Positions 25,578 to 27,539 of a DNA stretch of 64,000 nucleotides are shown one piece after another (position 1 is the first letter of the stretch; each line of letters starts with the position of its first letter). Below the pieces are notes generated by a model. That model was not told the origin of the DNA. It did not search any database and saw nothing but the letters and a program-made list of their open reading frames with translations. The stretch spans positions 1 to 64,000 of the forward strand of contig NZ_AFPB01000179.1 in the NCBI RefSeq assembly GCF_000218485.1, written 5' to 3'. The stretch comes from Aquimarina agarivorans. Its GTDB lineage: Bacteria; Bacteroidota; Bacteroidia; Flavobacteriales; Flavobacteriaceae. A program made the position numbers and the translations under genes.

Positions 25578-25895
25578 TTAATCTTCCACAATATCACCTG
25601 TCCAGTTCATAAAACCACCTTCTAAGTTATAAGTGGTGTCAAAACCGAGTTGTTCCATAATATCACAAGCTTGACCACTTCTGTTGCCTGAACGACAATA
25701 GATATAATAATTTTTAGATTTATCTAGTTTAGCTACTTCTTCTAAAAAATTCTGACCTTCTAAAAAATCAATTTGTTTCATATTGGCAATATAGCCTTCT
25801 TCAATTTCGCCATCCGTACGTACATCTAAAATGACAGCATTTTCATCATTTTCTAAAAGTTCAATCCATTCGTCTTGATCTATATCTTGTCTCAT
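25578..25895 (-). CDS. Single-domain rhodanese-like sulfurtransferase
   Basis: A 105-residue rhodanese domain with the substrate loop CRSGNRSGQA and catalytic Cys67 and the conserved ILDVRTDGEIEEGYI block near the N-terminus. No signal peptide is present, so a cytosolic thiosulfate or polysulfide transferase role is likely, possibly in sulfur relay. It is divergent from the trp operon across 60 bases that include the trp promoter. Confidence 0.9.
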   Translation of the reverse strand: MRQDIDQDEWIELLENDENAVILDVRTDGEIEEGYIANMKQIDFLEGQNFLEEVAKLDKSKNYYIYCRSGNRSGQACDIMEQLGFDTTYNLEGGFMNWTGDIVED

Positions 25896-25943: not shown

Positions 25944-25951
25944 TACATTTG
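25944..25951 (+). promoter_or_regulatory. Predicted -7 promoter box of the trp operon
   Basis: TACATTTG fits TAnnTTTG exactly. The trpL ATG at 25956 begins only four bases after this box, so the transcript may start at or next to the leader start codon. No TTG at -33 is clear, which is a weakness. Confidence 0.5.
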
Positions 25952-25955
25952 CCTG

Positions 25956-26006
25956 ATGAAAAATTTAAAATTTAATATTTGGTGGTGGATATCTCTAGTT
26001 AACTAG
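25956..26006 (+). CDS. trpL: trp leader peptide
   Basis: A 16-codon open frame encoding MKNLKFNIWWWISLVN, with three consecutive Trp codons (25980-25988), ends at TAG 26004-26006. Chance occurrence of TGG-TGG-TGG is unlikely in such AT-rich DNA, and it lies just after a promoter box, before an intrinsic terminator and immediately upstream of trpE. These are the parts of ribosome-mediated attenuation: stalling at Trp codons when charged tRNA-Trp is scarce would prevent terminator formation. The palindrome CTAGTTAACTAG covers the last codons and stop. Confidence 0.88.
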   Translation: MKNLKFNIWWWISLVN

Positions 26007-26053
26007 CTGTGATATTATGCATTTTATATAAATTTTTGTTCAAAATTTCATTC

Positions 26054-26088
26054 AAAAAAGGCTTGTCAATCACGACAAGCCTTTTTTT
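26054..26088 (+). terminator. trp attenuator terminator
   Basis: AAAAAAGGCTTGTC (26054-26067) pairs perfectly with GACAAGCCTTTTTT (26074-26087) around the six-base loop AATCAC and runs into a T tract. It is 48 bases after the trpL stop and 54 before trpE. A competing antiterminator is not obvious by eye; a 7-bp hairpin AAATTTT/AAAATTT (about 26030-26049) and an ATATC/GATAT pairing around the trpL stop are candidates for the alternative folds. Confidence 0.9.
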
Positions 26089-26141: not shown

Positions 26142-27539
26142 ATGAGTTACCAACTTAAAACGAATTTTAAAAAAATAATAGCAGATACCATTACGCCTGT
26201 AAGTGTGTACTTAAAAATTAGAGATCGTTTTCCAAACAGTTTATTGTTGGAAAGTAGTGATTATCACGGATCGGACAATAGTTTTTCATACATATGCTGT
26301 AATCCTATAGCGAGCATTACAGTAAAGGATGAGAAGATTACTCAAATTTGTCCTGAAGGTCACGTGCAAGTTGCTGATATTACTACCAAAACAGATATTC
26401 CTGAGGCTATTGAAGCTTTTGGAAGCATTTTTGAAACCGATGATAGTAACTTTAAATTCATAAATAACGGATTGTTTGGTTACATTTCATACGATGCTGT
26501 TCGCTATTTTGAAGACGTGGACATTAGTCAAAAGCCCAATAAGCTTGATATTCCAGATGTATACTATGCCGTTTATCAAAATATTATAGCAATTAACCAT
26601 TTTAATAATGAGGCTTATATTTTTGCACATACTTACAAAAAGGAGAGTAATATTGACGAAATAGAATCATTAATAAAAGTGAAAAATTTTGCTTCCTATT
26701 CATTTGAATCGGTAGGTGAAACTACAAGTAATATTGATGATGAAACGTTTAAAAAAAATGTAGCTATTGCTAAAAAACATTGTCAACGCGGCGATGTATT
26801 TCAGCTAGTGCTTTCCAAACGGTTTTCGCAAAAGTTTAAGGGTGATGAATTTAACGTATACCGTGCTTTGCGTAGCGTAAATCCTTCGCCTTATTTGTTT
26901 TATTTTGATTACGGAGATTTTAAAATTTTTGGAAGCTCACCCGAGGCACAATTAGTAGTGGACGAAGGGATTGCAGAAATTCATCCCATTGCCGGGACAT
27001 TTAAGCGTACGGGGGATGATGAAAAAGATGCTGTTTTGGCCAAAAAGTTGGCGCTAGATCCTAAAGAAAATAGTGAGCATGTTATGTTAGTTGACTTGGC
27101 GCGAAATGATTTGAGTCGTAACGGGAGTGATGTAAATGTAGAGCGTTACCGCGAAGTGCAATTTTACAGCCATGTAATCCATTTGGTAAGTAAAGTTACG
27201 GGGAAAAAGCGCGAAAGCAGCTCAACAATGCAAGTAGTAGCCGATACATTTCCAGCCGGAACATTAAGTGGGGCTCCAAAGCATATGGCAATGCAGCTGA
27301 TTGAAAAGTATGAAACGATAAACAGGGAATTTTATGGTGGAGCTATTGGTTTTATGGATTTTAAAGGTAATTTTAATCACGCCATTATGATCCGAACGTT
27401 TCTAAGTAAAAATCATAGTTTGCATTGGCAAGCTGGTGCGGGTTTAGTAACAGCAAGTAAAGAAGAAAGTGAGTTACAAGAAGTATATAATAAATTAGGT
27501 GCCTTAACTAAAGCGTTAAAATTAGCTGAAGATATTTAA
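26142..27539 (+). CDS. trpE: Anthranilate synthase component I
   Basis: Converts chorismate to anthranilate using ammonia supplied by TrpG. The 465-residue protein has the N-terminal LLESSD motif (about residues 35-40), the site of tryptophan feedback binding in this family, and the C-terminal chorismate-binding domain with AKKHCQRGDVFQLVLSKRF, SPYLFYFDYGDF, IHPIAGTFKRTG and DLARNDLSR. The LLES motif argues for TrpE over PabB, as does its place at the head of the trp operon. Expression is expected to be controlled by the upstream attenuator and the enzyme by tryptophan. Confidence 0.96.
   Translation: MSYQLKTNFKKIIADTITPVSVYLKIRDRFPNSLLLESSDYHGSDNSFSYICCNPIASITVKDEKITQICPEGHVQVADITTKTDIPEAIEAFGSIFETDDSNFKFINNGLFGYISYDAVRYFEDVDISQKPNKLDIPDVYYAVYQNIIAINHFNNEAYIFAHTYKKESNIDEIESLIKVKNFASYSFESVGETTSNIDDETFKKNVAIAKKHCQRGDVFQLVLSKRFSQKFKGDEFNVYRALRSVNPSPYLFYFDYGDFKIFGSSPEAQLVVDEGIAEIHPIAGTFKRTGDDEKDAVLAKKLALDPKENSEHVMLVDLARNDLSRNGSDVNVERYREVQFYSHVIHLVSKVTGKKRESSSTMQVVADTFPAGTLSGAPKHMAMQLIEKYETINREFYGGAIGFMDFKGNFNHAIMIRTFLSKNHSLHWQAGAGLVTASKEESELQEVYNKLGALTKALKLAEDI

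Follow-up and report, generated by a model that had tools for sequence, protein, structure and literature searches.

Organization of the trp leader region

The DNA stretch analysed here (hereafter the window; 64,000 nucleotides from Aquimarina agarivorans) carries a trp operon preceded by a short leader reading frame (Table 1). The first gene, trpE, encodes a protein with the Pfam domains Anth_synt_I_N and Chorismate_bind. It is followed by trpG, trpD, trpC, trpF, trpB and trpA, which were named from the translations of their open reading frames, the domain search having been made on TrpE alone. The first-pass annotation of this DNA took it to be from a flavobacterium, which is right in the loose sense, the closest named relatives of the TrpE being Aquimarina.

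The leader frame contains three consecutive Trp codons and lies between a promoter-like box and a terminator directly before trpE. These parts had been noticed in the first-pass annotation, and each was confirmed at its position: the frame has 16 codons, the box is a perfect Bacteroidota -7 element, and the terminator has 14 pairs and a loop of 6, is followed by T-rich sequence and ends 54 nt upstream of trpE. One terminator was found in the leader region, compared with 0.2 expected. The fold of the 143-nt leader had a z score of -5.7, which was equalled by none of 200 shuffles. Further, in the ribosome-free model of the 1:2 hairpin, the fraction of region 2 that was paired upstream was 0.81.

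The pattern GGCTTGTC-N1-10-CACGACAAGCC had a single occurrence in the genome, at the trp leader. A second terminator-like copy in the genome (L002) was considered and set aside; it is situated between two long opposite-strand ORFs and resembles an ordinary terminator. When the whole window was compared with known RNA families, there was no match at gathering score.

Table 1. Features of the trp leader region and their positions in the window
Feature	Position	Strand	Remark
Divergent rhodanese-like ORF upstream	25578-25895	-	Named from reading its translation
-7 promoter element TACATTTG	25944..25951	+	Perfect match to the Bacteroidota consensus TAHHTTTG
Leader peptide ORF MKNLKFNIWWWISLVN, 16 codons (ATG 25956, stop TAG 26004-26006)	25956..26006	+	
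Three tandem Trp codons (TGG), predicted ribosome stall site UGGUGGUGG	25980..25988	+	
1:2 protector hairpin, GAUAUC/GAUAUU plus inner CUAG/CUAG	25988..26016	+	Minimum free energy fold; would sequester region 2 unless a ribosome is stalled
Region 2, candidate antiterminator element UGUGAU (family consensus UCGUGA)	26008..26013	+	Position equivalent to the UCGUGA of relatives
Terminator 5' arm AAAAAAGGCUUGUC	26054..26067	+	
Region 4', AUCACG (terminator loop, 3' part, with the first 3'-arm base), putative target of region 2	26069..26074	+	
Terminator 3' arm GACAAGCCUUUUUU, then U-rich sequence	26074..26087	+	
trpE, anthranilate synthase component I	26142..27539	+	First gene of the operon regulated in this reading

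Conservation of the leader and terminator in relatives

We collected trpE loci from relatives by means of TrpE searches. The search within the genus covered 33 genomes, including that of the window; the poor or partial matches of G021 and G031 were left out, and 30 loci were fetched. In the family, TrpE was detected at E<=1e-100 in 181 of 199 genomes, from which 100 loci were taken with a weighting toward the better matches (99 from other genera and one more from the same genus). With eight loci from other families of the order and the window itself, the pooled set comprised 139 loci.

A Trp-rich leader preceded trpE in every locus: 30/30 within the genus (31/31 with the window), 8/8 in the other families of the order and 100/100 in the family. 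The Trp run was WWW in 133 of the 139 leaders and WW in six, and the first Trp was residue 9 in 123. Terminators were detected automatically in 132/139 loci and, after a looser pattern was applied, in 138, those of L043 and L044 being set by hand; the sole exception, L012, has a run of N there. Of the 138 terminators, 120 contained UCACGAC, a sequence that takes in the 3' half of the loop, and 118 had GGCUUGUC in their 5' arm; the other half of the loop, on the 5' side, was variable among loci. Changes in the terminator stem were compensated in L092, L133, L139, L141, L143 and L147. The outer stem, GGCUU/AAGCC, was near-invariant over about 100 genera, which exceeds the needs of antiterminator pairing.

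Codon -2 before WWW was mostly AAT or CAT, and codon -1 was mostly ACT. The conserved Asn/His-Thr that precedes WWW was considered as a possible signal of the nascent peptide, but with codons this uniform a constraint on the RNA and a constraint on the peptide are inseparable.

Promoter and predicted start of the leader transcript

The -7 element of Bacteroidota has been described as TAHHTTTG (PMC6847099). When the G of TACATTTG is placed at -5, the predicted +1 is the A of the leader ATG (25956), so that the leader mRNA of the window is predicted to be leaderless. TAHHTTTG was no more than 40 nt from the leader start codon in 131/139 loci, compared with 5.7 expected from shuffles, and within 120 nt in 133/139. 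The predicted 5' UTRs were 0-18 nt long in 130 of the 133 loci with the box, with modes at 0-1 and 12-14, and were 3 nt or shorter in 35 loci, among them the window, L011 and L012. A sigma-70 promoter was rejected as the wrong promoter type; the scan returned 10 sites against a mean of 5.4 in shuffles and was uninformative. In F. psychrophilum, 5.5% of mRNAs are described as leaderless (PMC9723704). If the leader mRNA is truly leaderless, it may provide a simple system for the study of transcription-coupled leaderless initiation in Bacteroidota.

A candidate antiterminator opposite the terminator loop and 3' arm

The first-pass annotation could not identify a competing antiterminator by eye; comparison of the loci revealed one, UCGUGA, which can pair with UCACGA in the loop and 3' arm of the terminator. 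UCGUGA occurred exactly, 26-28 nt past the first TGG, in 124 of the 139 loci, and in most loci no contiguous helix of the spacer with the terminator scored better than its pairing with UCACGA. The helix of the spacer with the loop plus 3' arm had a mean score of 17.0 compared with 11.5 for dinucleotide shuffles (p<=0.05 in 104/138 loci). When the whole terminator was offered, the best helix fell within the loop plus 3' arm in 128/138 loci by strict recount, and it began 24-28 nt past the first TGG in 133/138. The tandem TGG codons, the terminator and the mutually exclusive stems, for which a conservation check in relatives had been proposed, all held in the fetched loci.

Several helices kept their pairing through changes on both sides. 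Within the family these were UCGCAA/UUGCGA in L146 and UGUGU/ACACG in L194. In other families, helices with the loop plus 3' arm were built from different sequences, such as UGCGGGA/UUCCGCA in L043 and UGUGGG/CCCACA in L044, with further examples in L150, L162, L166, L170, L172, L173 and L177; the helices of these nine loci lay 24-37 nt past the first TGG. We gave this covariation more weight than the counts, because the loci share ancestry and the counts are not independent trials.

The pattern UCGUGA-N25-55-GGCUUGUC-N1-8-CACGACA was found once per genome in 121 of the 199 family genomes, and there were 0 matches in the reversed control. The matches that were compared by eye with the TrpE coordinates (G247 was left out and G205 was checked separately) lay directly before trpE; the exceptions found were those of G077 and G144. 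In G205 (L324, 1476-2819), the TrpE frame that follows the attenuator apparently ends in an unrelated tail.

An alternative is the classical geometry of E. coli, in which the terminator 5' arm is the partner of region 2. Pairing of this kind is seen in E. coli trp, in most his and phe leaders of the relatives and in several other trp leaders of Bacteroidota (e.g. L153, L154 and L160, and L042 and L046 with the end of the 5' arm plus loop). In the pooled loci, however, the spacer was no more complementary to the 5' arm than its shuffles were, with a mean score of 9.7 compared with 10.7 and p<=0.05 in 0/138 loci; these values refer to ungapped helices, a bulged 5'-arm helix being outside the test. 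We consider the classical geometry distinctly unlikely here.

The same code was applied to control leaders. For the trp leader of E. coli K-12 (L188) it chose the 5' arm (score 15 vs 9.5). All 20 his loci had a leader and a terminator, and the 5' arm was favoured in 17, the opposite in two, with one tie; among the phe loci, 18 of 21 had both leader and terminator, and the 5' arm was favoured in 17 with one tie (both comparisons use scores only, without shuffles). The controls included 16 his and 16 phe loci from the genus, and 4/20 his and 5/21 phe loci came from other families. Since the controls favour the 5' arm, the preference for the loop and 3' arm is a property of trp here and not of the method. 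The his leader of the window's own genome (L282, on C21) reads MNNSCLHHHHYYLIAQAG. His leaders with HHHH were seen in L269-L288, and phe leaders resembling FTWNRFYFFFF were seen in most of L290-L309, including L301, in Aquimarina and other families; the phe leaders of L302 and L303 were doubtful by eye.

We also considered whether the invariant terminator is mainly a protein-binding site, or whether the terminated RNA acts in trans as does rnTrpL of Sinorhizobium, the Trp leader being secondary in either case. The conservation of UCACGAC and GGCUUGUC goes beyond the demand of simple pairing; the published precedents are a protein-binding argument for rimP leaders (PMC2965389) and a leaderless trpL RNA of S. 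meliloti that acts in trans (PMC7298713). However, the leader UCGUGA complements the conserved loop base for base, it changes along with the loop in L146 and L194, it is held at a fixed distance from the Trp codons, and the changes in the terminator stem are compensated. A main role in protein binding or in trans is accordingly rated as very improbable. The comparisons point instead to an antiterminator whose partner in this family appears to be the terminator loop and 3' arm rather than the 5' arm.

The weak helix of the window

In the window, the helix between region 2 and region 4' (2:4' helix) is UGUGAU/AUCACG, with six pairs, one of them G-U, and its score was reached by 27% of shuffles (p 0.27). 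Because this helix is weak, the assignment of the antiterminator in the window leans on the relatives. For that reason, too, the exact UCGUGA pattern was absent from the window's own genome; it was also absent from 77 others of the 199. The sister locus L011 (GUCGUGAU) has an 8-pair helix, from which the window differs by two bases in UCGUGA (26007-26013). This two-base change has possibly weakened the attenuator.

The same difference from L011 and the p value of the window's own helix would also suit a decayed element, in which the parts are inherited and the 6-pair helix antiterminates poorly. Against such decay, the leader, the WWW run, the terminator and the 1:2 hairpin are intact, and the helix reached a probability of 0.78 in the folding model with a stalled ribosome. 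We judge decay in the species of the window to be unlikely.

Folding model and proposed switch

In many loci the UGA of UCGUGA is the stop codon itself, and region 1, directly after WWW, can pair with UCGUGAG to give the 1:2 protector hairpin. A ribosome that is stalled on the Trp codons leaves UCGUGA beyond its footprint, and one that has reached the stop codon, or nearly so, covers it. The folding of 130 loci was modelled for transcripts that extended to the third base of the 3' arm. The median probability of the 2:4' helix, preselected as the best in each locus, was 0.047 in free RNA and rose to 1.0 when a ribosome occupied the Trp codons. The pairs that close the terminator had a median probability of 0.47 when the ribosome was placed at the stop codon. 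In the window, the 2:4' helix had a probability of 0.00 in free RNA and the value given above with a ribosome at the Trp codons, and terminator closing was 0.64 with a ribosome at the stop codon. In L029, L102 and L146 the model formed the antiterminator even in free RNA.

From these results we propose the following switch. RNA polymerase would start at about position 25956, and a ribosome would load at once on the leader AUG, the predicted first base of the transcript. When charged tRNA-Trp is ample, the ribosome would reach the stop codon at 26004 and cover region 2, so that the terminator forms and the RNA ends before trpE. When Trp-tRNA is scarce, the ribosome would stall on UGGUGGUGG, open the 1:2 hairpin and free region 2. 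As the 3' half of the terminator loop and the base that opens the 3' arm emerge from the polymerase, the freed region 2 would capture them by pairing. The terminator hairpin would then be kept from nucleating, and transcription would continue into trpE. This target may be an effective one because it is the part of the terminator that has to nucleate before the polymerase has released the remainder of the 3' arm.

The leader region of the window has two of the parts expected of a ribosome-mediated trp attenuator, namely an ORF with the regulatory codons and an intrinsic terminator before the first structural gene. The third part, a mutually exclusive antiterminator, is supported by the comparisons and the model, and is weak in the window alone. 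The parts, their conservation, spacing and mutual exclusion, and the preference for the loop and 3' arm within the family, are shown by the sequence and its comparison with relatives. The leaderless start, the stalling of the ribosome, the termination and the order of folding, as well as the actual use of the attenuator in cells, we infer from them. Taken together, it is highly probable that the leader region is a ribosome-mediated transcription attenuator of the trp operon, in which region 2 captures the terminator loop and 3' arm.

Comparison with known leaders

The attenuator is of a kind already known, and the locus is ordinary as a kind. The first-pass annotation had compared it with the architecture of ribosome-mediated attenuation in Proteobacteria. 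The architecture was supported by our analysis; it is not confined to Proteobacteria, as RF01692 (Bacteroid-trp), a trp leader RNA of Bacteroidetes, was already listed in 2010 (Weinberg et al., 2010, PMC2864571). The element was also noted before the trp operon of F. psychrophilum (PMC6414381), and for flavobacteria there are reported to be strong indications that leader peptides ahead of amino-acid operons act by attenuation (PMC9723704, section 19).

The window resembles RF01692 in having a trp gene downstream, a tandem-UGG leader and a stem after the Trp codons, and it fits the description of that family, in which trp genes of Bacteroidetes are preceded by a leader ORF that carries tandem Trp codons. 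Its score against the RF01692 model was 36.5 bits (E 0.0067, full length 1-131), compared with a gathering score of 49. The gathering score was passed by four of five loci of the same genus (L013, L016, L029 and L030, with L011 below it at 36.8) and by 0 of 8 other loci. Thus, the window is a close relative of RF01692 and not a formal member. Further, the RF01692 model covers 131 positions and stops within the terminator 5' arm, so that it cannot hold the proposed pairing with the loop and 3' arm.

The trp attenuator of E. coli is a stall-dependent switch. The window shares with it (RF00513, Trp_leader) a short leader ORF with tandem Trp codons and a terminator before trpE. However, the partner of region 2 is the terminator 5' arm in E. 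coli and the loop plus 3' arm in the family of the window, which thus departs from the E. coli type. When 13 loci of relatives were scanned with RF00513, only L042 matched, and this match was sub-threshold.

Similar to the trpL of S. meliloti (rnTrpL/peTrpL), whose RNA starts at its own ATG and encodes a WWW leader peptide (PMC7298713), the window has a WWW leader and a start at the ATG, which in the window is only predicted. In contrast, S. meliloti belongs to a different phylum, and the roles in trans that were shown there (PMC7298713) have no known counterpart for the leader of the window. The flavobacterial his and phe leaders of the same genus resemble the trp leader in combining codons for the amino acid of the pathway with a terminator (PMC9723704). 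Unlike the trp leader, their best helix is mostly with the 5' arm (17/20 and 17/18, respectively).

What is new here is the antiterminator, its unusual target, the contrast with his and phe within the genus, and the likely change of amino-acid sensor described below. We found no description of the loop/3'-arm geometry of the antiterminator or of the Lys re-coding in the open-access literature that we searched, which is weak evidence of absence. For a large phylum whose mRNAs lack Shine-Dalgarno sequences, these results turn a one-line database entry into a testable mechanism of trp regulation.

A Lys-coded version before aspartokinase

In G077 (L340) and G144 (L341), the two exceptions found among the genomes with the UCGUGA pattern, the trp-type chassis of terminator and antiterminator preceded an aspartokinase-like gene. 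The products of these genes have AA_kinase and ACT domains, and we named the genes lysC from reading. The leaders are LKLINILNKKDKKVHLRRTS (TTG start) and VLNIFKQKDKKIYLRRMS (GTG start), in which KKDKK and KDKK replace WWW, and their tails resemble those of Trp leaders such as WWWKNLRRMS of L139. These findings indicate a likely natural change of the sensed amino acid, from Trp to Lys, in two genera.

A good TrpE was not found in G077 or G144, where the best matches had 21-26% identity. A trpE may have been missed, because the completeness of these genomes is 88 and 82%, respectively; a TrpB-like match was present in G144. A Lys attenuator of lysC throughout the family was considered and rejected, as only two of the 30 lysC loci examined had it (76 of the 199 genomes had a lysC match). 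The two genera represent a natural experiment: the RNA switch has been kept, and the amino acid that it senses has seemingly been changed.

trp leaders of other Bacteroidota

In a sample of the phylum, TrpE was detected at E<=1e-90 in 47 of 148 genomes, nine of which were already included and 38 of which were new. A short Trp-rich ORF (WW or W.W) was found before trpE in 37 of the 38 new loci, L180 being without it. The comparison of each spacer with its own and with foreign terminators was made for 30 of the 38 (L168, L179, L180 and L183-L187 were left out), with the terminators of the phylum set by hand, including those of L152 and L181, in which the program found none.

Terminators without UCACGAC were present in 49 of 171 loci. 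The best helix of these lay in the loop plus 3' arm in 24 loci, and in 21 it used the 5' arm, with or without the loop; of the remaining loci, two had helices that spanned all three parts and two had helices in the 3' arm alone. The own terminator was matched better than 95% of foreign terminators in only 18 of the 49. Helices were weak in L041, L045, L047, L155, L169, L171 and L181. Pairing with the 5' arm was observed in the trp leaders of L153, L154, L160, L161, L174, L175 and L178, and in L042 and L046 the helix took in the loop together with the end of the 5' arm. Since the targets of the best helix are mixed among the 49 loci, both topologies occur in the phylum, which suggests that the pairing target of an attenuator is not fixed.

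For the combined statement, we lean slightly toward the view that Flavobacteriaceae, and some loci of several other Bacteroidota families, have a distinct trp topology in which the loop and 3' arm are seized and the hairpin is thereby kept from nucleating, that his and phe in the genus are classical, and that the chassis has been re-coded from Trp to Lys before aspartokinase in two genera.

The arrangement of leaders and of Trp codons also varied. L044 has two tandem WWW leaders, about 300 and 160 nt before trpE, each of which is followed by a terminator-like hairpin and a T run. Tandem WWW leaders, each with a terminator-like hairpin and a T run, were likewise seen in L043/L343 (family f2). 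In L169-L173 (family f28), the Trp codons were interleaved with others, as in WAWFWF, WAWWW and WLWWW, in place of a plain WWW.
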